From the NCBI GenBank assembly GCA_900317515.1, contig ONHA01000021.1:20823-84822 (forward strand): a stretch of 64,000 bases of DNA. Reading direction: 5' to 3'. Below are positions 25,319 to 40,778 of this stretch, piece after piece; the first letter of the stretch is position 1, and every line of letters begins with the position of its first letter. Below the pieces are notes generated by a model that worked only from the letters and a program-made list of their open reading frames with translations, made no database searches and had not been told where the DNA came from. This DNA comes from an uncultured Eubacteriales bacterium (GTDB lineage: Bacteria; Bacillota; Clostridia; Lachnospirales; Lachnospiraceae). The position numbers and the translations under genes were made by a program.

Positions 25319-25320
25319 GT

Positions 25321-26535
25321 ATGGCAGAGAAAAAACTGACGAAAAATCTGATCTTTCTGATGTATTTTGTGACCATGACCATCCTGCTTCTCAACTGCAC
25401 GGACAATCTTCCGATCACATTCCAGCTCAGAAAAATAAAATACCTGTTTATCGCGCTTCTCATAGCGGATTTCATTTTCTCGGGTGATTATCTCGTCTCG
25501 AAGGTCTCGGCGTATGTGATCATCGGCTTCGCCGTCCATGCGCTGGTGTTCTGCCTGCTCTTTACCAATCAGAGGGTGGCCATGGACACCTATCTGCACC
25601 TCCGGGAGATGATCATCTATCTTGTCATGCTCTTTTTCCTGGTCAACGCGGTCGAGCGGTATCACGCGCTGACTCTCTTTACGGAGCTCACGGCCGTCTC
25701 GCTCATGGTCTTTCTTCTCTGGACCGGTTTCACCCACCTTCAGGATTTCGTCGCGCCCCGGTACTGGCTGCTCGTCTTTCTCCGGGACGCCCGCGTGCGG
25801 CACGAGTTCGGCCTGGTCCAGTACAACTACGCCGGTTTTTTCTGCACGGTCGGTCTCATCATCTTCTATACGGTATACAGACTGCATGAGAGGGCGGGGC
25901 GCGTTACCTACGGGGAGGCGGCTGCATTTTTTGCGATGGAGCTCTACACGGGCGCCATCCTTCTTTCGACAGGCTCCCGCGGCTCCATTCTCATGGCGGC
26001 GGTCTTTTTTGCGACTGCGTTCGTGCGGAGCAGGACCTTCCGGGAGCTCGGCCGGCGGCGATACGTTGTCGTGCTCCTCATGCTCTTTTTCGCGGGCGTT
26101 ATCCTGTATGCCAACCGGTCCTTCCTGAACGCCCAGGGCACCCGGCTTGAGAATTTCACGGTCAACTGGCCCTTCTTCCTTGAGGAGGGGCGCTACTTCA
26201 CGGGGATGGGCTACATGGAGAGCTCGGCCTTCATCGACCAGTCCTACGGCTACGCGACCTGGCCGGTCGATATCTATTACCTCTATATTTTCTTCTCGAC
26301 GGGCATACTCGGTTTTCTTATGGTTATGGCGATCCTGCTCTTTCTCTTTGCAAGGCTTGCAAAGGACCACAGCTGGTTCATCTACAACATCAGCTTTCCG
26401 CTCTACCTCGCGTCGCTCGTGAGCGCGCTGGGCCAGGTCAATCTCTTTACCTACCGCTATATCGCGGCGCTCTTTACCGCGGTTCTGTTTCTTGCGCCCT
26501 TCGGCATTGAGGGCAGAAGGGAAGCCGGGCGATGA
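25321..26535 (+). CDS. Polytopic membrane protein, probable polysaccharide polymerase (Wzy/O-antigen ligase type)
   Basis: 404-aa membrane protein with 10 or more hydrophobic segments. The start at 25321 (MAEKKLTKN) is taken because it follows the upstream stop directly and avoids an N-terminal hydrophilic artefact in the longer frame. Between the middle helices is ILLSTGSRGSILMAA, the S-R-G-x motif common to Wzy/WaaL proteins, followed by a large loop (about residues 265-320) containing GYATWPVDIYYLY. Position between glycosyltransferases and flippase fits the polymerase of a Wzx/Wzy system. Sequence conservation in this family is poor, so the function is inferred from topology and place. 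Confidence 0.75.
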   Translation: MAEKKLTKNLIFLMYFVTMTILLLNCTDNLPITFQLRKIKYLFIALLIADFIFSGDYLVSKVSAYVIIGFAVHALVFCLLFTNQRVAMDTYLHLREMIIYLVMLFFLVNAVERYHALTLFTELTAVSLMVFLLWTGFTHLQDFVAPRYWLLVFLRDARVRHEFGLVQYNYAGFFCTVGLIIFYTVYRLHERAGRVTYGEAAAFFAMELYTGAILLSTGSRGSILMAAVFFATAFVRSRTFRELGRRRYVVVLLMLFFAGVILYANRSFLNAQGTRLENFTVNWPFFLEEGRYFTGMGYMESSAFIDQSYGYATWPVDIYYLYIFFSTGILGFLMVMAILLFLFARLAKDHSWFIYNISFPLYLASLVSALGQVNLFTYRYIAALFTAVLFLAPFGIEGRREAGR

Positions 26536-28052
26536 GTGAGTCAAGGACAACGAAGGCAATGCGGAACATCCGCTTCGGAATGGGTCTTATGCTGGTCACG
26601 ACACTGCTCTCCTTTGCCGTGCGCACCGTGCTCATACGGGCGGTCGGCATCGAGCTTGTAGGCCTGAACGGGCTCTTCACCGAGGTGATCGGAGCGCTCT
26701 CCTTAGCGGAGCTCGGGGTCGGCTCATCGATCGCCTACAGCCTCTATGCACCGCTCGCGGAGGGAAATGAAGAGCGTGTATCCCAGCTCATGCAGATCTA
26801 CAGGCGGGCCTACACGGCGATTGCCGGGGTGACGCTTATTCTGGGCCTTGCCATCACGCCCTTTGTGCACCTCATGGTGCGAAAGGTGGACATCCCGGTA
26901 TCCTACATCCGGATCGTCTACGTGCTCTTCGTAGTGCAGCTCTCGTCCTCCTACCTCTTTTCCTACAAGACGGCCCTCTTAAACGTCGACCAGAAGAACT
27001 ACATCTTCTCCTTCGTGCAGGGGTGCGTGAAGATCGCGGGGACGATCCTGCAGCTGGTCCTGGTTGCCCTGACGAAGAATTATCTCTTCTATGTGGCGGG
27101 GCTTATCTTCATTTCCCTCGCGACCAACGTGATCTGCGCGCGGATCGCCGACCGGCAGTATCCCTGCCTTGCCATGAAGACCGATCCGCTGCCTCCGGAG
27201 GAGAGAAAACACGTCTTTGCCAACATGCGGGACATCTTCATCAAGAGCGTCTCGGGAAAGATTACGGGCTCGACCGATAATATTCTCATATCAACGTTGA
27301 TTTCCACCGCACTTGTGGGGTATTATACCAACTATAATCTGGTATTTAATGTGGTGAGGACATTTGCCGCGCTCATCTACGGCGGCGTGGTGAACAGCGT
27401 CGGCAACATGATGGCGACCGAGAGCGACGAGCGCTCGGAGGAGGTCTTCAGGAAGCTTTCCTGGTTCTTCTATGCGGCTGCCGCGGTGTGCTCGGCCTGC
27501 ATTTTCACCTGCATGGAGCCGTTTGTCCGCCTCTGGCTCGGGGAGGATTTTCTTCTGCCGACCGGCGTTCTCTTTGTGACATCGCTGGTCATCTTCCTCG
27601 AGGTCGCGACGAAGCCGCTCTGGCTCATCATGGAGGTTTCCGGGCTCTTTTCGAGGGATAAATACGCCTCGATCATCGGCTCGGCGGTCAACCTTGTCAC
27701 GTCGATCGTGCTGGGACTTCGGATCGGGATGGCGGGCATCTTTATCGGGACCTGCCTCACCTACGCGATCCAGTTTGCCATGAAGGCGTACTTTCTATAC
27801 CGCCTTAAGTGGAATAGATCCCCGATGCGGTACTGCCTGACATTTGCGGGGAGAACGGCGCTTCTTGTGGCCCTTATGCTGGCGGCGCGTGCGGTGACGG
27901 ACCGCCTGCCCGTGACCGGCGATCTTCCGGCATTTCTGATAAACGGATGTCTTACGGCGGGGGCCGCAGCAGCGGTCCTCATCGGCACGAGTGCGGGAAC
28001 GCCCGAATTTGCCTATGCGAAAGAACTGATCATTAAGAGACTGCGAGGATAG
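26532..28052 (+). CDS. Polysaccharide flippase (Wzx/MOP superfamily)
   Basis: 506-aa integral membrane protein with about 12-14 hydrophobic segments, of the polysaccharide-transport branch of the MOP superfamily. It would flip lipid-linked repeat units to the outer leaflet. Visible family features: an N-terminal TKAMRNIRFGMGL helix start, FAVRTVLIRAVGIELVGLNGLF (the conserved G-x-E-x-x-G-L-x-G-L-F pattern), and SLAELGVGSSIAYSLYAPLA. It overlaps the polymerase gene by 4 bp and precedes the GT32-type fusion by 2 bp, so the whole set is tightly coupled. Confidence 0.88.
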   Translation: MSESRTTKAMRNIRFGMGLMLVTTLLSFAVRTVLIRAVGIELVGLNGLFTEVIGALSLAELGVGSSIAYSLYAPLAEGNEERVSQLMQIYRRAYTAIAGVTLILGLAITPFVHLMVRKVDIPVSYIRIVYVLFVVQLSSSYLFSYKTALLNVDQKNYIFSFVQGCVKIAGTILQLVLVALTKNYLFYVAGLIFISLATNVICARIADRQYPCLAMKTDPLPPEERKHVFANMRDIFIKSVSGKITGSTDNILISTLISTALVGYYTNYNLVFNVVRTFAALIYGGVVNSVGNMMATESDERSEEVFRKLSWFFYAAAAVCSACIFTCMEPFVRLWLGEDFLLPTGVLFVTSLVIFLEVATKPLWLIMEVSGLFSRDKYASIIGSAVNLVTSIVLGLRIGMAGIFIGTCLTYAIQFAMKAYFLYRLKWNRSPMRYCLTFAGRTALLVALMLAARAVTDRLPVTGDLPAFLINGCLTAGAAAAVLIGTSAGTPEFAYAKELIIKRLRG

Positions 28053-28054
28053 GG

Positions 28055-29902
28055 ATGGAGAAGATTCCCCATATAATCCATTACTGCTGGTTTGGTCCGA
28101 AAAAGCCGCCCCGGGTGGAGCGGTTTATCGCCGACTGGAAAAAGAAGCTTCCGGACTACACCTTCATGGAGTGGAATGAGGAGAATACGGATATAAGCGG
28201 GTGCGCCTACGCACGGGAGGCGCTTTCGGCGGGCAAATACGCCTTCGTCTCCGACTATGTGCGGGTGAAGCGCCTTGTCGAGTACGGCGGCGTCTACATG
28301 GACACCGACGTGAAGATCATCCGCCGGTTCGATGAGTTTCTTCAGGGTGCCGGCGCGGTCCTCTCCATGGAGCGGCCCGGGTGCCTTTCGACCGCCTTTA
28401 TGGCGGCGGCCCCCGGACAGGCGCTTTTTGCGGAGTTTCTCGCCTCCTACGAGGAGCGGCACTTTATAAAAAGCGACGGGACGGAGGACCTCACGACGAT
28501 CAATGACGCTCTGACCGCCCTCTTTGTGCGGCACGGCCTGATCGGCCGGGCACGGGAGACGGAGGTCCTGCCCGGAAATGTATATATCTACCCGCCGGAA
28601 TACTTCTCGGCGTTCGACATGGACTACTGGAACCCCGAGGTCACGGAGAACACGCGGACTGTGGAGACGGAGAAGCCGGGGGAGAACGAAAGCGTTGTCT
28701 TAAAGCTCCTCGGTCACCTGCTCTTTAAGGCTCCCTTTGAGGCGGAGGCAGGCACCGACTGGGCGGCGGTCTTCGGGGAAATGAAAAACCACGCGCTCGC
28801 CCTCCTTGCGGCGGACATGCTTTCCGATCTGCCCCTGCCCGAAGATGTCCGGCGCGATTTTGAGGATGAGTCGATGGCGGCCTTCGGCCGGAACGCGCTG
28901 ATGCGGTACGGGCAGGATGATCTTGTGCGGGTGCTCTCAGATGCCGGGATCCGTTTTGCGATCCTCAAGGGGAACGCGGCGGGCATCTATTATCCGGTCC
29001 CCGAGTACCGGGTATCCGGCGACGTCGACGTGATCGTGTCCGGGGAGGATTTCGAGAGAGCCTGCGCCGTTCTCCGGGAGAACGGCTTCAGGGACGCCTT
29101 CACGGAGCAGAATACAGACCGCCACCTCAACTTTGAGAAGGACGGGATCCAGTTTGAGGTGCACAGGCGGTTTTCATTTGTCAACGACCCGAAGACGGCG
29201 CTGAGAATCGATGCGCTCATCGAGAGGGGACTTATGAAGACGAAGACCGTCCGGATCGGCGGCTCCGCGTTCCCGGTGCTCCCGGAGGCCCTGAACGGGC
29301 TTGTGCTGCTCCTCCATATCGGGCAGCACCTGGAGACGGGGCTCGGACTCCGGCAGATCCTGGACTATCTGATGTTTGTCCGCGCCAGAGTGGACGACTC
29401 CTTCTGGGAGCGGAAAATGAAGCCCCTGACCGAAGCCGTGGGCCTGACCGAACTCGCCGTCACCGTGACGAGGCTCGGACAGCTCTATTTCTCCCTTCCG
29501 GAGGAGGGGCACGCGTTTGCCCTCTCCGGGGACGATAAGGCGGCCCGTGAGCTCATGAGGATCGTGCTCTCCGACGGAAATTTCGGGCGCAAGGACGCCG
29601 AGCGGGTCAATGCGGTCCGCATTTTAAGTGCCGGTCTTACGGTGAGGGGATTTTTCGGAAACCTTGAGAGCGCGGGTCTTGCCAACTGGAAGGCGGCCCG
29701 GCGGCATCATTTCTTAAGGCCGTTCGCGTGGATCTACCAGTTTTGCCGCTATGTCTCCCAGCTCATTGCCACGAGGCATACGCCGGCGGGGTTCTTTGAG
29801 GAGATCAGGGAGACCGGAAGGCGGGCCGTGCTTCTTAAAAAGCTGCATGTCACCCGCAGGTCGAGAGGCATCGTATCTTCGAGAAGGGATAAGAGACTAT
29901 GA
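28055..29902 (+). CDS. Fusion of GT32-type glycosyltransferase and nucleotidyltransferase-like domain
   Basis: 615 aa, two domains. Residues about 1-245 are a GT32/capsular-type glycosyltransferase: IPHIIHYCWFGPKKPP, W-N-E-E-N-T, AFVSDYVRVKRLVEYGGVYMDTDVK with the DTD metal motif near 89. Residues about 265-560 match the NTP_transf_5 type: FAILKGNAAGIYYP (about 303-316), YRVSGDVDVIVSGEDF with the D-x-D pair, then QFEVHRRFSF. Such nucleotidyltransferases often accompany modified-peptide clusters with PqqD or HPr-kinase-like proteins, both present about 5-9 kb downstream. The fusion is unusual to me. The domain could transfer a nucleotide or act on a sugar; unknown. Confidence 0.8.
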   Translation: MEKIPHIIHYCWFGPKKPPRVERFIADWKKKLPDYTFMEWNEENTDISGCAYAREALSAGKYAFVSDYVRVKRLVEYGGVYMDTDVKIIRRFDEFLQGAGAVLSMERPGCLSTAFMAAAPGQALFAEFLASYEERHFIKSDGTEDLTTINDALTALFVRHGLIGRARETEVLPGNVYIYPPEYFSAFDMDYWNPEVTENTRTVETEKPGENESVVLKLLGHLLFKAPFEAEAGTDWAAVFGEMKNHALALLAADMLSDLPLPEDVRRDFEDESMAAFGRNALMRYGQDDLVRVLSDAGIRFAILKGNAAGIYYPVPEYRVSGDVDVIVSGEDFERACAVLRENGFRDAFTEQNTDRHLNFEKDGIQFEVHRRFSFVNDPKTALRIDALIERGLMKTKTVRIGGSAFPVLPEALNGLVLLLHIGQHLETGLGLRQILDYLMFVRARVDDSFWERKMKPLTEAVGLTELAVTVTRLGQLYFSLPEEGHAFALSGDDKAARELMRIVLSDGNFGRKDAERVNAVRILSAGLTVRGFFGNLESAGLANWKAARRHHFLRPFAWIYQFCRYVSQLIATRHTPAGFFEEIRETGRRAVLLKKLHVTRRSRGIVSSRRDKRL

Positions 29903-30729
29903 AGTATTTGAGAATACTCCTTTTTGCGCTGCTTGCCGTGTCGATCGCGGCATTCGGCGTGGCAAAGGTACAGGAGATTTCCGCGAGAAATGCCCATGTG
30001 CCGGTAATTGAGAGTGAGGATGGAACGCTGGAGCTCCCCTGTGATTACACGGAGGAGGAGCTTCTTGCCGGCGTGTCCGCCTTTGACGAGGAGGACGGCA
30101 ACCTGACGGACAAGATCCTGGTCGGGTCATTTTCCCGTTTTGTCGAGCAGGGGACCTGCACGGTCACCTATGTCGTGTTTGACAGCGCAAATGCGGCGGC
30201 GACCTGCACGAGAAAGGTGCATTTTACGGATTACGAATCGCCGAGGATCCTCCTTTCTGAGCCGCTGGTCTTTACGGCCGGAAGCGGTTCCACCGATGAA
30301 GTGCGGGACCGCCTTCTCATCGAGGACAAACTGGACGGAAATCTGGCCGGGACGGCCCGGTTCTCCAACATCAGCGTCTACTATGATTATGAGGGCAGCT
30401 ATTCCCTCACGGTGACCGCCTCGAACAGCTTCGGCGACACGGTGAGCGAGACGCTGCCGATCCATATCATCGACAAGCGGCTGACCGGTCTCATGATCTC
30501 CCTTTCCCAGCCGGTCGTCTACATCCCGAAGGGGAGCGGTTTTGAGCCGATGTCCTATGTGACCGGTGTCCGGGACCTGGGCGGGATCGCCTACACGGCG
30601 GAGGATCATGTGACGTGCGAGACGGACGTCGACACGTCGGTGCCCGGCGTCTACGAGGTTCGCTACGATGCGTCGAATGCCGGCGGCTCGGTCGGCACAA
30701 CCTGGCTGACAGTCATTGTGGAGGAGTGA
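29899..30729 (+). CDS. Exported protein with Ig-like (DUF5011-type) domains
   Basis: 276 aa. An N-terminal hydrophobic helix (YLRILLFALLAVSIAAFGVA, residues 3-22) acts as signal or anchor. The rest is beta-rich with two or three Ig-like repeats: FDEEDGNLTDKILVGSF, SRFVEQGTCTVTYVVFDSAN and VPGVYEVRYDASNAGGS, the pattern (DG-LT-I, G-Y-V-Y-A-D-G) of bacterial Ig-like/DUF5011 domains. It starts inside the preceding stop and ends 1 bp before the next gene. In an export locus it may be a wall-side scaffold. No catalytic motif seen. Confidence 0.75.
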   Translation: MKYLRILLFALLAVSIAAFGVAKVQEISARNAHVPVIESEDGTLELPCDYTEEELLAGVSAFDEEDGNLTDKILVGSFSRFVEQGTCTVTYVVFDSANAAATCTRKVHFTDYESPRILLSEPLVFTAGSGSTDEVRDRLLIEDKLDGNLAGTARFSNISVYYDYEGSYSLTVTASNSFGDTVSETLPIHIIDKRLTGLMISLSQPVVYIPKGSGFEPMSYVTGVRDLGGIAYTAEDHVTCETDVDTSVPGVYEVRYDASNAGGSVGTTWLTVIVEE

Positions 30730-30730
30730 G

Positions 30731-32098
30731 ATGAACCAGAGAATTACGGAAGGAAGCATGAGCCTCCGGGGATTTGTGAAGGATGTTCTCCGCAATTTCT
30801 GGATGGTGGTGCTCTCGGGCGTCATAGTGTTTTTCGGCCTGACGGGTGCGGCCGGGCTCACGGAGAAGCCGGTCTACGAATCGAAGGCTACGCTCGTCAT
30901 CAGTTCAAAGGAGAGCTACAGCTCGCTGACATCCCTGCAGACCGCGGCCCAGATGGCGGCAGTCTTCAGCGAGGTGTTTCAGAGCGATTCACTGAAGAAA
31001 AATATCATGGAGACGGCAGGCGAGGAGATGAACGTGGATATCACCTGCCGGCAGGTCGAGGCGACCAACCTTCTCGCGCTCACGGCAGCCTCCGAGAATC
31101 CGCGCCACGCCTACCTCATGCTGCGCGCGGCCATCGAGAATTACGGGGAGGTGTCCGGCTACGTGTTCGGGCAGGCCGACCTCGTCGTGCTCACACCGCC
31201 GGATGTCCCGACGGAGCCCGCCCAGCGGACGACGCTTCTTTCCTACCGGAAGATCCTGATCCCGGCCGCGATGCTCCTCATGGTATTCGTGATCGGCCTC
31301 TTTTATCTCTTCCGCTTCACGGTTAAGACTACCCGCGGGGCGAGACGGCAGCTGGAGGGGACGATCCTCGGGACGATCCCGTTTGAGAAGTCCGTCTTCG
31401 GCCGCGGCAGAAAGAACACGAGGCACCTGATCGGAGGGGCCTCCTCGACGATGGCATTTTCCGAATCCGTCCGCAGGGCGGCCCAGAACATCCAGCAGCA
31501 CATGAACAAGAAGGAGGCGAAGGTCCTGCTGGTCACCTCGGCGACGCCGAACGAGGGCAAGACCATGACTGCCGCCAATATCGCGGTCTCCCTGGCGGAG
31601 AAGAAGGCCAGAGTCCTCATCATCGACGGGGACTTCCTGAATCCCTCCCTGGGCAGGATCTTTGAGCCGGCTCCGGGAGCAGGCACGATCTCGGATATTC
31701 TCTCCGGGAAAATGAAACTCGGCGACGCGGTCTCCTACGACCGGAAATACCGCCTCTTCAAGCTCTACCAGGGCGACGGCCGGCAGGGACGAAACGCGGC
31801 GGGCGACCGGGACCGGATCGAGGCCATTGTGAACATCTGCAGGCGGGAGATGGACTACGTGATCATCGACAGCTCGCCCGTGACGGTCTCCGCGGACGCG
31901 GAGATGTGGATGGGCCTTTCCGACACGGCCCTCCTGGTCGTCCGGCAGGACTGGGCGGACGTCAGGATCATCAACGATGCGGTCGACATGATCTGGACCA
32001 ACACCGGCGATTTCACGGGGTTTGTCCTGAACGCGTTCGAACCCGAATGGGGAAGCGCGGGCAGATCGCAGCACTACGGTTATGAGAGCTACGCCTGA
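30731..32098 (+). CDS. Wzz/BY-kinase fusion protein, copy 1
   Basis: 455 aa. Two membrane helices (about 26-48 and 172-194) bracket a Wzz-type chain-length domain. After that a bacterial tyrosine-kinase domain follows: Walker A TPNEGKTMTAAN (about 269-280), Walker A' VLIIDGDFLNPSLG (about 296-309) and Walker B VIIDSSPV (about 377-384). The start at 30731 follows GGAGG. The C-terminus has only two Tyr (YGYESY), a much smaller cluster than in the next gene. Wzz and kinase are usually separate CpsC/CpsD in Firmicutes; here they are fused in one chain. No cognate tyrosine phosphatase gene lies in the window. Confidence 0.87.
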   Translation: MNQRITEGSMSLRGFVKDVLRNFWMVVLSGVIVFFGLTGAAGLTEKPVYESKATLVISSKESYSSLTSLQTAAQMAAVFSEVFQSDSLKKNIMETAGEEMNVDITCRQVEATNLLALTAASENPRHAYLMLRAAIENYGEVSGYVFGQADLVVLTPPDVPTEPAQRTTLLSYRKILIPAAMLLMVFVIGLFYLFRFTVKTTRGARRQLEGTILGTIPFEKSVFGRGRKNTRHLIGGASSTMAFSESVRRAAQNIQQHMNKKEAKVLLVTSATPNEGKTMTAANIAVSLAEKKARVLIIDGDFLNPSLGRIFEPAPGAGTISDILSGKMKLGDAVSYDRKYRLFKLYQGDGRQGRNAAGDRDRIEAIVNICRREMDYVIIDSSPVTVSADAEMWMGLSDTALLVVRQDWADVRIINDAVDMIWTNTGDFTGFVLNAFEPEWGSAGRSQHYGYESYA

Positions 32099-32119: not shown

Positions 32120-33601
32120 ATGGAGAGAGGAAGACAACACACGGAGGATGCGGGCCTTCGGGATTTCATAGATTTCGGCCAGCTGTTTCGGGACTTTCTG
32201 CGCTACCTGCGGAAATACTGGCACATCCTGCTCATTATGACCGTGCTTTGCGGCGCGGGCTACACGGCTTTCCGGATCGGCACGACGAAGCCTGTCTACC
32301 GGAGCGAGGCGACCTTCACGGTCGGCCTTGTCGGCGCGCAGAATTCAAATACATCCTATTATTATTCGACGACGGCTGCGGCCCAGATGTCGAGCACGTT
32401 CCCCTATATCCTGGAGAGTGATTATTTTAGGAGTCTTCTTCTGGAGGAGCTGGGGGAGAGCGAGCTCGGCGGCTCGATCGGGGCTTCCGTGATCGAGAGC
32501 TCCAACATGGTCACCATGTCGGCGGAGGCGCCGACCGCGGAGGAGGCGGCGAGGATCCTGAAGGGGGCCATGGCGGTTTACCCGAAGGCGGCCTATTTCG
32601 TGCTCGGCAGCATTGAATTTTACGTGATCAACGCGCCGAACCTGCCCGAGACGCCCGTCAACGTGAGCTCTCCGGTGCGGCTGGCCGTGATCGGCGGGAT
32701 CGCCGGCCTCTTTCTTGCCTGCTTTGTCATTCTGCTCCTCACGATCATCCGGCGCGATGTGCGCTCGGAGGAGGACGTGGCGAAAGTGTCGGATATGAAG
32801 CTTCTGGGTCAGCTTCCGCTCATCACCGGAAAGGCGAGGAGCACGGGGAGAGCCAGAAAGCTCTGGTCCGTGTTTGATGAGCGGACCCCCTATGAGTACA
32901 GAGAGAGCATCCGTTCGCTGGCCGGACGTCTCCTCAACACGCTGCGTAGGATGGACGGCGAGGAAACGGAGAGCGGCGAGGGCAGAGTGATCCTCGTGAC
33001 CGGCACGGCTCCGGGTGAAGGCAAATCGTCCCTGTCGGTCAATCTCGCGGAGGAGCTGACCCGCGAGGGCAAGAAGGTTGTCCTGGTGGATGCGGACCTC
33101 CGCAAGCAGGGCGATGCCGACCTCGTGGATGCCCCGGAGGATGCGATCGGCCTTGTGGATATCCTGTCCGGCGGTCGGGAGGTCTATGTAAAGAGGGCTC
33201 CGGCGGGGTTTGCATTTATCGGAAATGCACAGCGCGTCCTGAAGAACCCGGTCAGGCTCCTCTCCGACGAGCGCATGCATGACGTGGTGGAGAGCCTCCG
33301 GAAGAGCGCCGACATCGTGATCTTCGACACACCGCCGGCGGGCGCTTTCCAGGATGCCTCCATTCTCGCACCTTACGCCGACGGGATCCTCTACGTGATC
33401 CGCTGCGGCGAGCTGACCCAGGACGAGCTCGGCGAGGCGCTCTACTCCCTCGCGGAATCGCCCGCCCCGCTTCTCGGCTACGTGCTGAACGCATGCCCGG
33501 AGTCGGAAGGCAGCTACGGCTACGGAAGGTACGGCTACGGCCGCTACGGTTATGGTTACGGGTACGGCTACGGGAAAAACTACGGGTACGGAAAAGACTG
33601 A
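32120..33601 (+). CDS. Wzz/BY-kinase fusion protein, copy 2, Tyr-rich tail
   Basis: 493 aa, same architecture as the preceding gene: membrane helices at about 35-55 and 192-215, then kinase domain with Walker A GTAPGEGKSSLSVN (about 291-304) and Walker A' VVLVDADLRKQGD (about 320-332), plus Walker B IVIFDTPP. The tail is a striking Tyr/Gly cluster of about 30 residues beginning GSYGYGRYGYGRYGYG, with about 12 Tyr, the usual autophosphorylation site. In family models, phosphorylation of this cluster regulates polymer length. The paralogue upstream has almost no cluster, so the two may differ in regulation. Last gene before a promoter and leader region. Confidence 0.9.
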   Translation: MERGRQHTEDAGLRDFIDFGQLFRDFLRYLRKYWHILLIMTVLCGAGYTAFRIGTTKPVYRSEATFTVGLVGAQNSNTSYYYSTTAAAQMSSTFPYILESDYFRSLLLEELGESELGGSIGASVIESSNMVTMSAEAPTAEEAARILKGAMAVYPKAAYFVLGSIEFYVINAPNLPETPVNVSSPVRLAVIGGIAGLFLACFVILLLTIIRRDVRSEEDVAKVSDMKLLGQLPLITGKARSTGRARKLWSVFDERTPYEYRESIRSLAGRLLNTLRRMDGEETESGEGRVILVTGTAPGEGKSSLSVNLAEELTREGKKVVLVDADLRKQGDADLVDAPEDAIGLVDILSGGREVYVKRAPAGFAFIGNAQRVLKNPVRLLSDERMHDVVESLRKSADIVIFDTPPAGAFQDASILAPYADGILYVIRCGELTQDELGEALYSLAESPAPLLGYVLNACPESEGSYGYGRYGYGRYGYGYGYGYGKNYGYGKD

Positions 33602-33641
33602 AAAAGTTTTTTAAAAATATATCGCATACTTGAAAAACATG

Positions 33642-33650
33642 TGCTATACT
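33642..33650 (+). promoter_or_regulatory. Extended -10 promoter of the peptide-modification cassette
   Basis: TGCTATACT, extended -10, with hexamer 33645-33650. It gives the pqqD-led genes their own start of transcription inside the locus. No good -35 at the right distance; TTGAAA at 33630 is too close. Confidence 0.6.
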
Positions 33651-33664
33651 GACACTATCTGTAG

Positions 33665-33694
33665 GCAGGTGCCTGCAGTGTTTGGATTGCAGGC
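33665..33694 (+). promoter_or_regulatory. Leader with two overlapping hairpin options before pqqD
   Basis: GCAGG (33665-33669) can pair with CCTGC (33672-33676), or GCCTGCA (33671-33677) with TGCAGGC (33688-33694). The two share bases and exclude each other. The second ends at the GGAG ribosome site (33695-33698). This could be an attenuator-like or operator-type control; function untested. Confidence 0.4.
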
Positions 33695-33702
33695 GGAGCG
33701 AT

Positions 33703-33969
33703 ATGAAGGTTAAAAGCGGATTTATACTTCGAAAGATAGGCTCAAAATACATGGCGGTCCCCGTCGGGGAGCGCACGCGGGACGTTCACGGCATGGTTGC
33801 CCTGAACGAGACGGGCGCATTTATCTGGCAGCTTCTTGAGGAGGATCGGACCGGGGAAGAGGTCATCGAAAAGATCCTTGAGGAGTACGATGTCGACCGT
33901 GAGACCGCAGCCGGAGCACTCGCCCGCTTTAAGGCGAAGCTGGCGGAGGAAGGGGTTCTCGGCGAATGA
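33703..33969 (+). CDS. pqqD: PqqD-family peptide-binding protein (RRE)
   Basis: 88-aa winged-helix RiPP recognition element of the PqqD family, which holds the leader of a precursor peptide for a partner enzyme. The protein opens MKVKSGFILRKIGSKYMAVPVG, then VALNETGAFIWQLLEEDRTGEEVIEKILEEYDV, the typical N-E-T/S-A-x-x-I/L-W-x-x-L pattern, and a final helix. The start at 33703 is chosen over an in-frame TTG at 33682 because GGAG sits 4 bases before it. It overlaps the radical SAM gene by ATGA. The symbol refers to the family; there is no PQQ pathway here. Confidence 0.9.
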   Translation: MKVKSGFILRKIGSKYMAVPVGERTRDVHGMVALNETGAFIWQLLEEDRTGEEVIEKILEEYDVDRETAAGALARFKAKLAEEGVLGE

Positions 33970-35018
33970 GCGACTGTGATTTTCTTGCGGGGACGCTGGA
34001 TCATTTTACAGAGGAGCTTAAGGAGATTGCCCGGCGGGACGCGATCCCGGTGAACGGCATCTTCGAGCTCACCGCAAGATGCAATTTCGACTGCCGCATG
34101 TGCTACGTGCACCTTACCCCCGACGAGATCCGGAAGCAGGGCCGCGAGCTCACGAATGCAGAGTGGCTTGCCATCGCCGAAAAGGCGAGGGAGCGCGGGA
34201 TGCTCGAGCTCACGCTGACCGGCGGCGAGATCTTCGTCCGGAGGGACTTTCGGGAACTCTACACCGAGCTCAAGCAGATGGGTTTTCTCATCAATCTCAT
34301 GAGCAACGGGTATCTCGTCGATGAGCGGGTGATGGAATGGCTTGCCGAGGATCCGCCCTACGCGATGCGCTTTACGCTTTACGGCGCCTCCAACGAGACC
34401 TACCGGGCGGTGACCGGGATCCCGGACGGATTTGACCGCGTAAGCCATGCGATCGATCTTGTGAAAGAGGCTGATATCCCCTTCTATCTGATGGGGCTTA
34501 TCATAAAGGAAAACAATGCGGACCTGCTGAAAATGTATGAGTTCGCAAGGGAAAAGAAGGTTTACTTCCGTCATTCCATCGCGCTTGTGCCCCCGGTCAG
34601 GGGAGCGAAGCAGGACGCAGCGGCTCACCGGGTGGATTTCACAAAGTTTCCGAAGGAGGCTTTTAAGGATCTCCCGAAGGCGGAGAGGATCTACAGACAT
34701 CATCCACGTCAGCTGCTTGACTGTGCACACTACCGGCGCGGGTTTGTCGTGACCTGGAACGGAAAGATGCAGCTCTGCAGCTTTCTCTCCGATCCGGCGG
34801 AGGATGTGAGGGAACTTGGCTTTGACAGGGCCTGGGAGAAGCTTCTTTCGGATCTTGAGCAGCTTCCCGAGCCGGAGAAATGCGGAACCTGCAGGTACGA
34901 AGGCTTCTGCAGACGATGTCCCGGGGTGCTGGCGGCGGAAAGCGGCAGTACCGGTCGGGTGACGGACTCTTACTGCAGGCAGGCAGAGTTTGTATATGGG
35001 ATTTACCACAATGAGTAG
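33966..35018 (+). CDS. Radical SAM/SPASM peptide-modifying enzyme
   Basis: 350 aa. The radical SAM cluster motif CNFDCRMC occupies residues 39-46 (CX3CX2C), with TLTGGEIFVRRDF (GGE motif) near 80. A full C-terminal SPASM domain follows: CAHYRRGF, a GKMQLC (GX4C), CGTC, then FCRRC and a last Cys in SYCRQ, enough for two auxiliary [4Fe-4S] clusters. Such enzymes install thioether, carbon-carbon or epimer modifications in ribosomal peptides. It is coupled to pqqD by overlap and followed 12 bp later by the 121-aa candidate precursor. The chemistry cannot be assigned from sequence. Confidence 0.92.
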   Translation: MSDCDFLAGTLDHFTEELKEIARRDAIPVNGIFELTARCNFDCRMCYVHLTPDEIRKQGRELTNAEWLAIAEKARERGMLELTLTGGEIFVRRDFRELYTELKQMGFLINLMSNGYLVDERVMEWLAEDPPYAMRFTLYGASNETYRAVTGIPDGFDRVSHAIDLVKEADIPFYLMGLIIKENNADLLKMYEFAREKKVYFRHSIALVPPVRGAKQDAAAHRVDFTKFPKEAFKDLPKAERIYRHHPRQLLDCAHYRRGFVVTWNGKMQLCSFLSDPAEDVRELGFDRAWEKLLSDLEQLPEPEKCGTCRYEGFCRRCPGVLAAESGSTGRVTDSYCRQAEFVYGIYHNE

Positions 35019-35030
35019 GAGGAGCAGATA

Positions 35031-35396
35031 ATGAAAAGAACATTTGAGGAGCCGGAAGTCAGGAAGATTCTGATCAACCTCAGGGAGAGCATTGCCGACG
35101 GTTCCGGCGGTCCGGATGCCCATGTCTCCATCATTTTTGCGACCGTGCAGGCGATGGCAGGCTGCACCGACCTGATCAATGACACGCTGCCGAATCCGGG
35201 TGTTATTTCCGGAAATACGCTCATGGATTGGATCATCGCAAATGCGGCCGCCCTTGCGAATTGCTCGACGATCGGCGTGGAGCCGGAGACGAACGTGCGG
35301 CTTTTCGCAGCGGCACCGGCGCAGACCGGCGGCAGGGGAACCGTGGTCTACGATGTGCCGAAGGATATCGCGGATACCTACGGCATGAAGTATTGA
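35031..35396 (+). CDS. Candidate modified-peptide precursor or partner protein, 121 aa
   Basis: Not a family I recognise. The N-terminus MKRTFEEPEVRKILINL has the F/Y-x-x-P-x-hydrophobic pattern seen in RRE-bound leaders (compare YxxPxL of lasso leaders). The middle is Gly/Ala/Asn rich with two Cys (MAGCTDL about residue 45 and ANCSTIG about 82). The C-terminal segment AAAPAQTGGRGTVVYDVPKD and YGMKY is uncharged-rich. AGGAGGAGC precedes the ATG. Its place just after pqqD and the radical SAM gene, with a terminator after it, is the usual position of a highly expressed precursor. At 121 aa it is long for one; it could instead be a scaffold protein. Confidence 0.6.
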   Translation: MKRTFEEPEVRKILINLRESIADGSGGPDAHVSIIFATVQAMAGCTDLINDTLPNPGVISGNTLMDWIIANAAALANCSTIGVEPETNVRLFAAAPAQTGGRGTVVYDVPKDIADTYGMKY

Positions 35397-35430
35397 TGCC
35401 GTCTTCAAAAGCTGAATATACCGACACCGT

Positions 35431-35468
35431 AAAGAATCCTGCTTTGACACTGGGCGGCAGGATTCTTT
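35431..35468 (+). terminator. Intrinsic terminator/attenuator between candidate precursor and exporter
   Basis: Perfect 12-bp stem AAAGAATCCTGC (35431-35442) with GCAGGATTCTTT (35457-35468), 14-base loop, and a T-rich end. Placed 34 bases after the 121-aa gene, it would raise that transcript above the exporter genes. Confidence 0.8.
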
Positions 35469-35497
35469 CTTGTGCTTAAGGGGTTGTAAGGCAAAGG

Positions 35498-37267
35498 ATG
35501 AACACAGCCGGGAAAATAAGAGGCAAACTGAACAGGGAAAAGACGGGGGCTTTCCTCTCGGAGATGCGCTGGCTTGCCGGCTACAGCTGGAAATACCGCC
35601 TTCGGATGGTCTGGTACGCCCTGTGCGGGCTCATCAGCACGGGCCTTGGCCTCGCCGGGTCGGTCATCAGCAAGCATATCATCGATGCGGTGACCGGGGC
35701 TGACTCGGGAGGGCTTGTTCTGGCGGTTGCCTTCTACGTGTTCTCCCAGGTAACATCCATCGCGATGAATGCGGCCGGAAGCAGGATCTCCGCAAAGATC
35801 AGTATCGATGTCGAGCAGGAGATCCGGGCGGATGTCTATGACAAGGTCATGAACGCGGACTGGCAGGCGATGACCCGCTTCCACTCGGGCGACATCATCA
35901 CCCGCGTCGAGGGGGATGTCGGAACCGTCTCGGGCACCGTGCTCACCTGGCTGCCGAACCTTGTGACAAGGCTGATCCAGCTTGCCGGCGCGTTCTTTAT
36001 CATTTTTCGCTATGACCGCATGCTGGCGGTCCTGGCGCTCCTCACCGCGCCGATCTCCCTCCTGCTCTCGAGGGTCGTTCTCCCCCGCATGAAGCGCTAC
36101 AACGAGGAGATGCGGCAGATGAACGCAGAGATGATGGTATTCAAGGAAGAGTCTTTCCACAACCTGGAGAGCCTGAAATCCCTGGGACTCACCCGGGCTT
36201 ACGGAGAGAAATTCCGTTCTGTCCAGAAAAAATACCGCACCATGCGGCTTGACTACAATGCATTTACGATCCTGACTCAGGCGCTCATGTCGGGAGCGGC
36301 CATGCTGGTCGGGCTCGTCTGCTTCATCTGGGGCGTCTACCGCCTCTGGAGCGGCGCGATCACCTACGGAACGATGACGCTGTTCCTGCAGATGGCCTCC
36401 CAGCTCTCGTCCTCCTTCTCCGTCCTGGCCGGCATGGTTCCGGGCATGATCCAGGCGGCGACGGCGGCCGGCCGCATCATCGCGGTCACGGAGCTGCCCG
36501 AGGAGAAAAATGAAGACCGCGAAGCCTCCGAAGAGCTCCTTCATGAGAACCCGGACGGCATGGCGGTCTTTATGCGCGGCGTGACATTTCGCTATGCGGG
36601 CGGCGGAACCGTATTTGAGCAGGCGGACCTTGAAGCCCGCCCGGGCCGGATCATCGGGGTCATAGGCCCTTCGGGCGGCGGCAAGACGACGCTTATGCGG
36701 CTGCTTCTCGGGATCGTTGCCCCCGAAAAAGGGGAACTGTACGCCGAGGGAGCGACAACCGGCGGAAGACTGACTGTTTCCGCATCGACGAGAAATTTAT
36801 TTTCCTATGTACCCCAGGGCAACACCATGCTGACCGGAACCGTGGCGGAGAATCTCCGCGTCATGGATGGGAAGGCGGATGAGGGCAGACTCATCGAGGT
36901 GCTCCGCCGGGCGGGTGCGTATGATTTTGTCGCGGCGAAGCCCGAGGGGCTTGACGCGAAGGTGAGGGAGCGCGGCGGCGGCTTCTCCGAGGGCCAGATC
37001 CAGCGGCTTGCGATCGCGCGGGCGCTGCTTTCCGACGCGCCGGTCCTGCTGCTCGACGAGGCGACCAGCGCGCTCGACCCGGAGACGGAGCGGCTCGTGC
37101 TCGCGGGGATCCTCGGGTTTGACAGGACAAAGACCGTGATCGTGACGACCCATCGCCCGTCGGTCCTCGGCTCCTGCGATGCGGTTTACCGGATCGCGGA
37201 CGGGACGATACGGGAGATCGCAAGAGAGGAAGCTGTTCGGCTTATGGAGGGGCAGGAAGAAAAATGA
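35498..37267 (+). CDS. ABC exporter, fused permease and ATPase
   Basis: 589 aa. Five to six membrane helices (residues about 30-310) form a type IV ABC exporter permease, then the ATPase: Walker A GPSGGGKTTLM (about 389-399), an altered signature FSEGQIQRLAIARAL (SEGQ rather than SGGQ) and Walker B VLLLDEATSALD. No C39 peptidase domain is attached, so leader removal would need another protease. It lies between the candidate precursor and the HPr-kinase-like gene, overlapping the latter by 4 bp. Export of the modified peptide is the likeliest role; multidrug or lipid export cannot be excluded. Confidence 0.88.
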   Translation: MNTAGKIRGKLNREKTGAFLSEMRWLAGYSWKYRLRMVWYALCGLISTGLGLAGSVISKHIIDAVTGADSGGLVLAVAFYVFSQVTSIAMNAAGSRISAKISIDVEQEIRADVYDKVMNADWQAMTRFHSGDIITRVEGDVGTVSGTVLTWLPNLVTRLIQLAGAFFIIFRYDRMLAVLALLTAPISLLLSRVVLPRMKRYNEEMRQMNAEMMVFKEESFHNLESLKSLGLTRAYGEKFRSVQKKYRTMRLDYNAFTILTQALMSGAAMLVGLVCFIWGVYRLWSGAITYGTMTLFLQMASQLSSSFSVLAGMVPGMIQAATAAGRIIAVTELPEEKNEDREASEELLHENPDGMAVFMRGVTFRYAGGGTVFEQADLEARPGRIIGVIGPSGGGKTTLMRLLLGIVAPEKGELYAEGATTGGRLTVSASTRNLFSYVPQGNTMLTGTVAENLRVMDGKADEGRLIEVLRRAGAYDFVAAKPEGLDAKVRERGGGFSEGQIQRLAIARALLSDAPVLLLDEATSALDPETERLVLAGILGFDRTKTVIVTTHRPSVLGSCDAVYRIADGTIREIAREEAVRLMEGQEEK

Positions 37268-38130
37268 AAAGCTGGTTCCGTATCGCCGGAAAAAACATCC
37301 TCATAGAAGGCGCCGGCAGCAGGGCAAGACGTTTCTTCCGGGGCTTCGAGTCCGGGGAGGGCGAGCCGTTCATGACATTTAAGGCAGAGCTTCCCGGTGA
37401 GGAAGCAATATCGAGCGGATCCGAGGAGGAGCTCCTCTTCGGCCTTCGGGTGACATACATGGAAGGTTCCTGGCCCTGGAGATTCGACGCCAGGCAAAGC
37501 TCCCGCGAGTATCTGCTCGCTTCCTCTGATTTTACATCCTGCCGGATCATTTCCAAACCGATCATCACGGGTGAGATGCCGGATGATCCCGCCGACGAGC
37601 CCCGCTGGAGGGGCCTCATCCTCGGCGCGATGGCGGCAAAGGGAGCGCTCTCCGGCATGCTCCTCGCCCATGCCTCCGCGGTGGAATACGAGGGGGAGGC
37701 AGTCATCTTTACGGCTCCGTCCGGGAGCGGCAAGACGACGCAGGCCGAGCTCTGGAACAGGTATCTTAAGGCGCGGATCCTGAACGGGGACAAGGTGTTC
37801 ATTTCCCGGGAGGAGGACGGATTTTACGCGTACGGCTCCCCCTGGGCGGGCTCATCGCCCTACCGGGAGAACCACGGGGCTCCGATGCGGGCCGTCATCG
37901 TCCTTCAAAAGGGGGAGAAAAATGAAATCCGGCGCCTTCGAGGCGAGGAGCTCCTCCGCTTCTTTGTTCCGAACATCTTTCTTCCCTACTGGGAGGGGAC
38001 GCTTCTTGACGCGGCGCTCGGAACGCTGGACGCCCTTGTCTCAGCCGTTCCGGTGTACCTTCTCACCTGCCGCGCGGACGAGGAGGCGGTCCTCCTCACA
38101 AAAAAGGCTGTTTTCGGGGATCAGATGTGA
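37264..38130 (+). CDS. HPr-kinase-like protein of a peptide cluster
   Basis: 288 aa. A P-loop TAPSGSGKTTQ sits at residues 150-160, with a preceding AHASAVEYEGEAVIF strand, as in the HprK-related proteins of lasso-peptide clusters; the N-terminal HprK domain is absent. Downstream features: NGDKVFISRE, YGSPWAGSSPYRENH (a conserved S-P-W-x-G/S motif of this group). In some lasso clusters a member phosphorylates the peptide's C-terminal Ser. Overlap with the ABC exporter gene supports action on the same peptide. No lasso cyclase or B2 protease gene is present, so the substrate is inferred, not shown. Confidence 0.82.
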   Translation: MKSWFRIAGKNILIEGAGSRARRFFRGFESGEGEPFMTFKAELPGEEAISSGSEEELLFGLRVTYMEGSWPWRFDARQSSREYLLASSDFTSCRIISKPIITGEMPDDPADEPRWRGLILGAMAAKGALSGMLLAHASAVEYEGEAVIFTAPSGSGKTTQAELWNRYLKARILNGDKVFISREEDGFYAYGSPWAGSSPYRENHGAPMRAVIVLQKGEKNEIRRLRGEELLRFFVPNIFLPYWEGTLLDAALGTLDALVSAVPVYLLTCRADEEAVLLTKKAVFGDQM

Positions 38131-38150: not shown

Positions 38151-39161
38151 ATGCATATTTCCGGTAAAATAAAAAAATATATGCGGCGAAGCGCCGACGA
38201 ACTTCTTTTTTCGCGCGAGCTCGCCGAAAAGTATTCCCTGCGGGATTCGGCGGTCGTCCTCGCGGCCAAGGCCGATATCCAGAGGAGTGTCCGCTCGGGC
38301 AACCTCGAGACGCCGGCCATGAGGCGGCGGCTCATGTACAAGCACAGGGTGATGAGCCGCTATTTTGCGGAGGAGTTCGGGGAATTCCTTCGGAGGTATG
38401 ATTTCGGGAAGGCGCTCCCGCCGGCGGATCCGGCTTTTGAGGATACGATCTGGGTCCTCTGGTGGCAGGGAGAAGAAAATGCCCCGGAGACCGTTAAAAA
38501 GTGCCTCGCCTCCGTGCGGCGCTGCGCGGGAGACCACCCGGTGGTCCTCCTTGACGAGCGGAACTTCCGCGATTACGTGACCGTACCGGACTGGGCCACG
38601 GAGAGACTTTCGGCCGGGTCGATCTCGGTCACGCATGTGTCGGATATCATCCGGATAACGCTTCTTGCGGAAAAAGGCGGGCTCTGGCTCGACTCGACGA
38701 TCCTCTGCACCGGAAGCCTTGAGGAAGCATTTGCTCACCCGGTCTGGTCGATCCGCCGCCCGGGATATCTTCATCTTTCGCCCGCCTGCGGGCGGTTTGC
38801 CAATTATGCGCTCTCGGCCAGGGGCGAGGGGAGACGTTCATTTTCCATCATAAGAGACCTCCTTTATCACTACTGGGAGACGACGGCGAGGATGAACGAC
38901 TATCTGTTCCTCGACTACCTGATCCTGCTTGCGCAGCACGCGGATGCGCGGACGCGGGAGCTCTTCCGGGCGATCCCGGCCAACAATCCGCGGTGCGACG
39001 ACCTTCTCATAAACTTCGGACAGGCCTTTGACGCCGAAGCCTGGGAGGAAATGAAAAAAGACACGCAGCTCTTTAAACTGACCTGGAAGCTGAATTTCAG
39101 GGAGGAAAAGCAGGGCAGAACCACATTCTGCGGGATGATGCGGAGAGGAGAACTGTTTTAA
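38151..39161 (+). CDS. Capsular-polysaccharide-type glycosyltransferase
   Basis: 336 aa, Caps_synth/GT32-like fold. Marks: DTIWVLWWQGEENAPETVKKCLASVRR (about 100-126), VVLLDERNF, then ISVTHVSDIIRITLLAEKGGLWLDSTI with the G-G-x-W-x-D-S/T-T donor-site motif (about 157-183). Similar proteins occur in Gram-positive capsule loci, where they transfer hexoses. It follows the HPr-kinase-like gene by 20 bp, so polysaccharide and peptide genes share transcripts. A basic, Arg-rich N-terminus with no signal peptide suggests it acts at the cytoplasmic face. Confidence 0.82.
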   Translation: MHISGKIKKYMRRSADELLFSRELAEKYSLRDSAVVLAAKADIQRSVRSGNLETPAMRRRLMYKHRVMSRYFAEEFGEFLRRYDFGKALPPADPAFEDTIWVLWWQGEENAPETVKKCLASVRRCAGDHPVVLLDERNFRDYVTVPDWATERLSAGSISVTHVSDIIRITLLAEKGGLWLDSTILCTGSLEEAFAHPVWSIRRPGYLHLSPACGRFANYALSARGEGRRSFSIIRDLLYHYWETTARMNDYLFLDYLILLAQHADARTRELFRAIPANNPRCDDLLINFGQAFDAEAWEEMKKDTQLFKLTWKLNFREEKQGRTTFCGMMRRGELF

Positions 39162-39162
39162 A

Positions 39163-39726
39163 ATGGGTAAGATAAGGCGCCTTAGCCGCAACCAGATGCG
39201 GGTACTTAAGGGGATTTGTTTTTTCGTGGACATGAGATTCCGGACAAAGCTGCTGAAAAAGCTGCATATCTTCGCCGGATTCGGGGAGGACTGTGTCTAC
39301 GGTTCCAGAAACATTCCGGAAGAGCCCTATATGATAAAGATTCACAATAACGTGTTCATCACGCCGGAGACGATCTTTCTGCCGCACGACAGCATTCCCG
39401 AGATGCTTGCCAGAATGAAGAATGTAAAGCCCGGCACGGTCTTTCCTGAGTATCACATGGGCACGATCGAGGTGTTTGACAACGTCTTCATCGGCACGGG
39501 CAGCCTGATCCTGAACGGCGTGAAGATCGGGCCGAACGCGATCGTGGCCGCGGGCAGCGTGGTCACGAAGGACGTCCCCGAGGGGACGATCGTGGGCGGC
39601 AACCCGGCGAAGGTAATCGGAACGGTGGACAACTTCATCGAGAAGAGAAAGAAAATGATGGACCGTCCGATCGACCGGGATCCGCTCTCGAAGATCATGA
39701 AATATTACTGGGGTGAGAAGCACTGA
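39163..39726 (+). CDS. Hexapeptide-repeat O-acetyltransferase
   Basis: 187 aa left-handed beta-helix acyltransferase of the maltose/galactoside O-acetyltransferase group. The repeated hexapeptide pattern is visible in MGTIEVFDNVFIGTGSLILNGVKIGPNAIVAAGSVVTKDVPEGTIVGGNPAKVIG, read as short turns such as NGVKIG and AAGSVV. A HYDS/H-D-S region (LPHDSIPEM) and EYHMGTI may hold the catalytic His. It would decorate a sugar of the repeat unit with acetyl from acetyl-CoA. One base separates it from the previous stop, and it overlaps the next gene at the TGATG. Confidence 0.88.
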   Translation: MGKIRRLSRNQMRVLKGICFFVDMRFRTKLLKKLHIFAGFGEDCVYGSRNIPEEPYMIKIHNNVFITPETIFLPHDSIPEMLARMKNVKPGTVFPEYHMGTIEVFDNVFIGTGSLILNGVKIGPNAIVAAGSVVTKDVPEGTIVGGNPAKVIGTVDNFIEKRKKMMDRPIDRDPLSKIMKYYWGEKH

Positions 39727-40778
39727 TGGCAGCGGCAGCGGTTCTTTTTGCGGCGGCAATCCTTCTTTCCGCAAGGAAAAAGACAGGGGGAGAGTGGCTT
39801 TCCAGGGAGGACACGTCGGCGCTTCGGGGCGTCATGGCGGTTTTTATCCTGTTTGTCCATCTCCCGGACGTATGCTCTTTCCTGAATGAAAACTATGCGG
39901 CGACGTTTGAGCCCTTTATATTCCAGGGGCACCTCGCCGTCGGTCTCTTCTTTGCGCTCTCCGGCTACGGACTGGCCCTCTCTGCGGAGAAAGGCTTCTC
40001 CGGGTTCTTCCGAAGACGGTTTTTCGAGGTGCTTCTGCCCTATTTTCTCTGCAATCTTGTCTTTCTCTTTGCCATCAGGGCCGGGGGAAAGGAGATCGGC
40101 ATGCTTGACATGCTCGGTTCCTGGTTTACCGGGGACCCGATGGTCACCTACAGCTGGTACGTTGTCACCCAGCTTATTTTCTATGTGTTCTTTTATATAG
40201 CCTTCCGGTGCTTTAACGGCCGGGCGATGAAGATCGCCGCGCTCTACATATTCGTATCGGTCTATATGCGCTGGGCTCCGCACTTCGGATGGCCGCTGGT
40301 CACGACGCGGGGGTGCTTCTGCTTTGTCCTCGGGGCTTCTGTCGGCGCCTTGAAGAGAGAGATCGACATGATCCTGGCCCGGAGAAAGACCGGACTCATG
40401 CTGGCTGTTTCGGGAGTTCTCTTCCTGATCTCCCATGTTCTCTATTTTGCGGTTCCGCTTATTAAGGAGACTCCCCTTTTTGACGGCTCGTCCGTTTTCT
40501 TCGTGGTTTTCATTTTCCTCCTAAACCGTGTTTTTGTGCTTGCTCCGCCTTTCTTTCACGTGCTGGGAAAGTGCAGCCTCGAGATCTACCTCTACCAGAA
40601 TCTTGCCTTTATCCTGATGAGAAGGGTCTTTGTCATGCTGGGGTCGGACAATGTGTTTGCCTACGCGTGCGCCTCGATTGCGTTTGCGGCGGCGGGGGCG
40701 GCAGCGGTTCATTTTGCATACGGCACCGTGAAGGGGCTTCTTGTGAAATTTCCCGTTTTTCAGGATAAATCTGCCTGA
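39726..40778 (+). CDS. Membrane acyltransferase (acyltransferase 3 family)
   Basis: 350-aa polytopic protein with 9-10 hydrophobic segments. The N-terminus has RGVMAVFILFVHLPDVC (R-G-x-x-A-x-x-V-x-x-x-H, the conserved Arg/His pair of the family), then GHLAVGLFFALSGYGL. These enzymes move acetyl or other acyl groups across the membrane onto extracytoplasmic sugars. It is the last gene of the locus and partners the soluble acetyltransferase just upstream. About 100 bp of non-coding DNA with a strong promoter follow before carB. Confidence 0.88.
   Translation: MAAAAVLFAAAILLSARKKTGGEWLSREDTSALRGVMAVFILFVHLPDVCSFLNENYAATFEPFIFQGHLAVGLFFALSGYGLALSAEKGFSGFFRRRFFEVLLPYFLCNLVFLFAIRAGGKEIGMLDMLGSWFTGDPMVTYSWYVVTQLIFYVFFYIAFRCFNGRAMKIAALYIFVSVYMRWAPHFGWPLVTTRGCFCFVLGASVGALKREIDMILARRKTGLMLAVSGVLFLISHVLYFAVPLIKETPLFDGSSVFFVVFIFLLNRVFVLAPPFFHVLGKCSLEIYLYQNLAFILMRRVFVMLGSDNVFAYACASIAFAAAGAAAVHFAYGTVKGLLVKFPVFQDKSA

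Follow-up and report, generated by a model that had tools for sequence, protein, structure and literature searches.

A probable RiPP-type peptide-modification cassette with a radical SAM enzyme in an exopolysaccharide operon of a Lachnospiraceae bacterium

Linear polyphosphorylated peptides (LPP) have been described as products of gene clusters lying within capsule loci (Popov et al., 2026; PMC13381572). As presented there, such clusters comprise SpI, a recognition element (RRE) for ribosomally synthesized and post-translationally modified peptides (RiPPs), an HprK-like kinase, an NTP transferase and an MsbA-like exporter. Their precursors of 35-200 aa carry a conserved N-terminal xxP leader and a variable C-terminus, the kinase LppK phosphorylates a core serine, a polyphosphorylated Ser3 of the core marks the LPP product, and why peptide genes occupy capsule operons is a question that the authors leave open (PMC13381572). 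We herein analyse a stretch of 64,000 nucleotides (the window) from an uncultured Eubacteriales bacterium of the family Lachnospiraceae (assembly GCA_900317515.1, contig ONHA01000021.1, positions 20,823 to 84,822 of the forward strand), in which genes for a PqqD-like RRE, a radical SAM enzyme, a 121-aa protein, an ABC exporter and an HprK-like protein follow one another on the + strand within one exopolysaccharide operon. The product of this cassette is probably a ribosomal peptide with post-translational modifications that belongs to the exopolysaccharide programme, made in the manner of LPP with a radical SAM step added.

An earlier note, made from the DNA letters without database searches, had proposed that these five genes form a peptide-modification cassette embedded among polysaccharide genes. 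The order, the strand and the polysaccharide genes on both sides were confirmed, and the reading as a RiPP-type cassette whose precursor and likely substrate is the 121-aa protein is well supported. The protein is read in this way because it combines an xxP leader, a conserved E-x-I-A segment and two conserved cysteines with a variable remainder. Its open reading frame (ORF) is coding and constrained, since the differences from its 119-aa homologue in a same-genus relative (G312), which occupies the matching site of an otherwise matching polysaccharide operon, number 34/26/72 by codon position; synonymous divergence is saturated in this gene, and codon-position counts alone were used. In an alignment of 15 precursors (window, G312 and 13 further ones), P8, E19, I21, A22 and C45 are invariant and C78 is kept in at least 90%. 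All share an [F/Y/W]xxP leader motif and the E-x-I-A segment, and apart from the two cysteines the remainder varies widely among relatives in both sequence and length, with cores of 58 to 151 aa. An extension beyond C78 is common to the window and G312 and is absent or shorter in the other 13. The AlphaFold model of the precursor is of low confidence (pLDDT 44.8), and therefore no fold is claimed.

Searches with the 121-aa protein returned little: no Pfam family (E <= 0.1) or NCBIfam family, no PDB sequence, one weak archaeal match among plasmids (E 5e-3), and matches in three genomes out of 299, those in G271 and G234 being weak (E 0.007-0.009). The precursor profile, run over 397 same-family genomes, gave eight matches in six genomes. 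Seven of these lie next to cassette genes (radical SAM, HprK or both) and the eighth, in G045, does not, so that the wide occurrence apart from PqqD and radical SAM genes, which the earlier note had named as telling against its proposal, was not seen.

The leader of this precursor and its RRE match each other. According to the published structure of LppB with a leader (PMC13381572), D70 forms a bond to the tyrosine of the leader, and N33 keeps the proline kink in place. The D70 equivalent is Asp in all 15 RREs paired with YxxP precursors, and Ala, Ala, Ala and Ser in the four paired with FxxP precursors; the window's own RRE has Ala there and retains the equivalents of N33 and F74. By eye, the position is Ser, Ser and Ala in the WxxP systems L065, L073 and L076, whose precursor lies about 6-7 kb away from the RRE gene, and Val in a further WxxP case, L057. 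At L061 (6500-7723) and L062 (5579-6751, -), the HprK-like kinase and the PqqD-like RRE are fused in a single protein next to a YxxP precursor, and the residue, again by eye, is Asp. All 39 RREs of class B (defined below) and 17 others likewise have Asp. On the other hand, the N33 position does not track the proline, because it is Asn in the FxxP group and Ser or Thr in 12 of the 15 YxxP cases.

The radical SAM enzyme resembles radical SAM/SPASM peptide maturases in its CxxxCxxC motif and SPASM-type cysteines (C253-x12-G266-x4-C271, C306-x2-C309-x5-C315-x2-C318 and C337), which are invariant in eight of eight aligned relatives; the last spacing is x3 in the SPASM pattern and x2 here. The earlier assignment as a SPASM enzyme thus holds for the cysteines and found no counterpart in the Pfam scan, which gave no SPASM match. 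For the kinase, weak profile matches together with the fold of its model (pLDDT 92.8) suggest an HprK-like identity: PEPCK and HprK/P folds were matched with E 2.5e-6 and 3.1e-5, at modest TM-scores of about 0.3-0.55. No Pfam family was found for it at E <= 0.1, and PF07475 matches five of nine aligned HprK-like relatives and not the window's own protein. Relatives of this kinase are present in 72 of 299 same-family genomes; H136, K157 and D176 are kept in 36/36 and D272 in 34/36, with no second Asp after D176. The exporter scores best with the NCBIfam model MsbA_lipidA (237.6 bits, under the cut-off of 602), and its profile scans gave no C39 peptidase match, in agreement with the earlier note.

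The genome collection was scanned with eight aligned radical SAM proteins and the best 80 of 267 relatives were kept, so all frequencies that follow hold for these 80. At distances of up to about 8 kb from the radical SAM gene lie genes for PqqD (73), HprK-like proteins (74), ABC exporters (63), Wzz/BY-kinase (CpsCD; 50), NTP_transf_5 (37) and SpI-like proteins (16). A script found a comparable small ORF after the radical SAM gene in 56 loci, and L080 was added by eye. The 56 are defined by a small ORF after radical SAM and then HprK (or HprK after the exporter, in L071, whose contig is identical to that of G312), with PqqD near. Class B comprises all remaining loci (39) in which a small ORF separates radical SAM from HprK. 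These class counts omit 13 HprK-radical SAM loci that serve as control, four WxxP loci and seven others of the 80, and they include both L083 and L086, which are near-copies.

Many Clostridia carry this gene set as one unit, and the lack of such conservation, the other outcome that the earlier note had held to be damaging, was not observed. The order PqqD-radical SAM-precursor-HprK-ABC occurs in 38/56 loci and ABC-PqqD-radical SAM-precursor-HprK in 10/56; that of the window, with the exporter before the kinase, recurs only in L071. The cassette is also recurrently linked to Wzz/BY-kinase and Ig-like surface genes. CpsCD stands somewhere in the locus in 48/56 and an Ig-like protein in 47/56, always together with CpsCD. 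Counted within about 8 kb, CpsCD is found in 47/56 loci vs 1/13 HprK-radical SAM-PqqD controls (Fisher p 3.7e-7), and with full-flank loci only in 32/36 vs 1/6 (p 8e-4), the control class being a more distant group that is often on shorter contigs. Nine of the 56 loci combine radical SAM with the complete set of LPP genes, including that of Catenibacillus scindens (L075), whose radical SAM protein is 55% identical; in L065, L073 and L076, radical SAM relatives share one cluster with PqqD, SpI-like, HprK and ABC genes.

A cysteine lies within the last 11 residues of 55 of the 58 precursors (mean 9.6 and maximum 21 in 2000 shuffles), that is, in 39/39 of class B, 15/15 of the YxxP group and 1/4 of the FxxP group. 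The 39 class B loci (L091-L146) have no xxP leader and share an SG, a GxTGxGW-like segment and the near-C-terminal Cys; a G-[FYIV]-[TS]-G-x-x-W-like segment, a broad pattern, was counted in 38/39 and SG within the first 60 residues in 36/39, both without shuffle control. Class B precursors may form a peptide family of their own. Judged from sequence, the near-terminal Cys, the SG and the Ser/Thr after I-A are candidates for modification sites. A WxxP precursor family of the type MxxWxxPEVKVFxVKMDENIAASG was also seen, at L065 (14646-17228), L072, L073, L074 and L076, with a closely related radical SAM enzyme and a glycosyltransferase encoded alongside, and some of these clusters include the LPP gene set.

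Among known systems, LPP is the closest. As in the published LPP clusters, the window encodes a discrete RRE, an HprK-like kinase, an MsbA-like exporter and a precursor with an xxP leader and a variable C-terminus in a capsular polysaccharide setting; the NTP transferase is present as well, unlike LPP fused to a glycosyltransferase, in a gene about 4 kb upstream of the cassette. The window differs from LPP in its radical SAM enzyme (neither 'radical sam' nor 'rsam' appears in the main text of PMC13381572) and in pairing FxxP with Ala where LPP pairs YxxP with Asp70. The printed LPP leader, YxxPxVLxHQxIxFETxxS, was not matched: the window's FEEPEVRKILINLRESIADGS keeps xxP, without the Tyr and the HQ/FET parts. 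Neither was an SpI-like leader peptidase found in the window with a 3-seed profile applied to ORFs of 60 aa or more. LPP membership was therefore rejected, and because SpI partly defines LPP, we regard the locus as a radical-SAM variant with an LPP-like mode of action, one that lost, or never had, an SpI of its own. The earlier statement that the cassette matches no known class is consequently only half right, since LPP shares most of its parts as well as the capsule setting. The window's genome holds three SpI-like genes elsewhere, two of them adjoining PqqD and HprK-like genes; at L054 (G000:C39:109000-121000) and L053 (G000:C25:90000-103000), LPP-like sets of PqqD, HprK-like and SpI-like genes were observed, with no radical SAM match found there.

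Paeninodin-like phosphorylated lasso peptides likewise share with the window an RRE, an HprK-like kinase, an NTP transferase and an ABC exporter, and their clusters often lie near capsule genes, according to the published accounts (PMC9266682; PMC13381572). The lasso label was rejected, as the RRE scores under the lasso cut-offs and neither a macrolactam cyclase nor a B2 protease is among the genes Pfam-scanned between 23124 and 40778, in line with the earlier note. Biosynthesis of pyrroloquinoline quinone (PQQ) was rejected on score (PqqD 20.7 vs cut-off 46, PqqE 79.4 vs 381; the PqqD-like protein was scored against Pfam and NCBIfam from 33706, one codon after its ATG). SynChlorMet cassettes bring PqqD-like, HprK-like and radical SAM proteins together, as here; this candidate too was rejected on its NCBIfam scores (bits/cut-off: ScmD 22.3/100, ScmE 63.4/400, ScmF 44.4/400, ScmC 15.9/125). 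A literature search, in which subscription journals and bioRxiv were thinly covered, found no radical SAM enzyme with an HprK-like kinase in polysaccharide loci.

Features of the operon are collected in the table. The 4-bp overlaps reported earlier exist at the PqqD/radical SAM and ABC/HprK junctions, and at the remaining two the genes stand 12 and 101 bp apart. A promoter and leader of its own had also been ascribed to the cassette. A box in common with the same-genus relative and a stem-loop ahead of PqqD speak for this; a consensus scan ahead of PqqD found no two-hexamer promoter and no match at the box, which leaves the proposal weakly supported. The hairpin of the inverted repeat ahead of the exporter gene does not reach significance (z -0.99; 33/200 shuffles fold equally well), and at the corresponding place G312 carries another stem-loop, which has a T run. 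The genome of the window is 2.72 Mb in size, and the closest named relative is a metagenome-assembled genome of Lachnospiraceae from its own genus. The window's genome contains a further FxxP radical SAM cassette at a contig end (L051, G000:C73:80000-91517, and L052, G000:C30:1-8000); the HprK-like gene of this second cassette is split over two contigs, and a third cassette, of HprK-radical SAM-PqqD-NTP type, adjoins. Elsewhere in the window, positions 8129-11017 (-) encode a large protein of secreted appearance that combines a CotH kinase domain with ricin-type lectin repeats.

Table. Features of the cassette and of the surrounding polysaccharide operon (positions in the window).
Feature	Position	Strand	Evidence or remark
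Glycosyltransferase (GT4/GT1 type), polysaccharide operon	23124..24350	+	Pfam Glycos_transf_1 114.4 bits
Wzy/O-antigen-ligase-like membrane protein, start uncertain	25159..26535	+	Wzy_C 18.9 bits, under cut-off 31.7
Wzx-like flippase	26532..28052	+	NCBIfam WZX_like 23.1 bits, under cut-off 300; no Pfam match
Glycosyltransferase-NTP_transf_5 nucleotidyltransferase fusion (LppN/PsmN-like domain)	28055..29902	+	Pfam Gly_transf_sug 44.1, NTP_transf_5 130.4 bits
Ig-like surface protein	29899..30729	+	Pfam Bact_surface_Ig-like 59.2 bits
Wzz chain-length protein fused to BY-kinase-like ATPase, copy 1	30716..32098	+	Pfam Wzz 30.2, AAA_31 32.1 bits
Wzz/BY-kinase-like protein, copy 2, tyrosine/glycine-rich tail	32120..33601	+	Pfam AAA_31 37.3 bits; Wzz 18.3, under cut-off
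Possible extended -10 box TGTGCTATACTG (TGTGyTATACTG), also in same-genus relative	33639..33651	+	Promoter unproven
Stem-loop ahead of PqqD	33659..33678	+	One terminator-like site in scan; shuffle average 2.4
PqqD-like RRE	33703..33969 (ATG 33703)	+	Pfam PqqD 64.8 bits, cut-off 23.4
Radical SAM enzyme, SPASM-type cysteines	33966..35018	+	Pfam Radical_SAM 77.8 bits, cut-off 29.5
Candidate precursor peptide, 121 aa	35031..35396	+	
Likely precursor leader (FxxP motif, E19, I21, A22, S25)	35031..35108	+	15-precursor alignment
Inverted repeat (12 bp, perfect) in the precursor-exporter gap; may be an attenuator	35431..35468	+	
MsbA-like ABC exporter	35498..37267	+	Pfam ABC_membrane 110.1 (cut-off 28), ABC_tran 89.6 (25)
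HprK-like kinase	37264..38130	+	Weak profile matches and fold match
Caps_synth glycosyltransferase	38151..39161	+	Pfam 229.9 bits
Hexapeptide acyltransferase	39163..39726	+	Pfam Hexapep 34.9 bits
Acyl_transf_3 membrane acyltransferase	39726..40778	+	Pfam 76.5 bits

From this gene content we infer a product, a chemistry and a role, with the order of steps taken by analogy with LPP and pseudomycoidin. Judging from relatives, the PqqD-like RRE would bind the 121-aa precursor at its FxxP leader, the HprK-like kinase would phosphorylate a serine just past the leader, in the S25 region, and the MsbA-like exporter would carry the product out. The glycosyltransferase-NTP_transf_5 protein may act after the kinase and add a sugar to the phosphate, hexose addition by PsmN having been described in print. 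The radical SAM enzyme would modify the core, perhaps by forming a bond to a conserved cysteine, and this chemistry is conjectural, as are the route of leader removal and any tie between peptide and polysaccharide.

Several points weigh against this reading. The gene-content profiles were seeded partly from the same loci, and the presence of PqqD and HprK in the 56 loci is no evidence, because both were selection criteria. The change from Asp to Ala or Ser in the RRE may represent one switch, since the FxxP and WxxP RREs form one group (moderate support, 80/82). Of the His-Lys-Asp-Asp motif with which lasso kinases are described in print, only H136, K157 and D176 can be placed in the kinase. 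Ser/Thr follows I-A within four residues in only 15/19 class A precursors (counts without shuffle control), the window's precursor is among the 3/58 without a near-C-terminal Cys (the others being G312 and C. scindens), and the cassette is patchy, a close radical SAM ortholog being found beyond the window's genome in only 1/41 same-genus genomes.

Patchy occurrence and hypervariable cores would also suit an antimicrobial or signalling peptide that merely rides in a polysaccharide locus, both surface traits being under similar selection, and LPP and paeninodin are reported to have undergone many gains and losses (PMC13381572). However, Wzz/BY-kinase and Ig-like genes beside the cassette in 47/56 loci are a more specific association than a shared island needs, and we hold this explanation to be possible, if rather unlikely. 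The 121-aa protein could otherwise be the mere source of an exported small cofactor or signal resembling PQQ or mycofactocin. The best curated models for the radical SAM enzyme are indeed of the AhbD, PqqE, NirJ and mycofactocin types, all far under their cut-offs, but one fixed small molecule is ill-suited to cores whose length and sequence vary so widely. To our knowledge, kinase and NTP_transf_5 genes are foreign to the PQQ and mycofactocin pathways, and we give this account little chance. Slighter still is the chance that the cassette enzymes have a different target in the operon, for example the Ig-like surface protein or, in the second Wzz/BY-kinase, the tyrosine-rich tail, and that the 121-aa protein is an accessory: these genes are close neighbours, yet it is the leader of the 121-aa family that carries the RRE-bound motif, matched by its own RRE, and the 121-aa gene stands directly behind the radical SAM gene.

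The LPP-like cassette with a radical SAM step thus remains our preferred reading. It could be carried further, to a large and as yet undescribed superfamily of phosphoglycopeptides, modified by radical SAM enzymes and integrated into the exopolysaccharide machinery of Clostridia, in which the peptide would be phosphorylated, would bear a sugar on the phosphate and would serve the polysaccharide as a covalent cap, primer or surface anchor, with the Ig-like and Wzz/BY-kinase proteins as its partners; taken as a whole, we think this extension unlikely, though somewhat less so than the cofactor account.

With this locus, the newly described association of phosphorylated RiPPs with capsule loci reaches beyond Bacilli into Clostridia and gains a radical SAM step. 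Precursor-enzyme sets from nature are now at hand by the dozen, and in them the pairing of RRE and leader is readily testable. If it is true that the peptide acts on the polysaccharide, these Clostridia would offer a first handle on why peptide genes sit in capsule operons.

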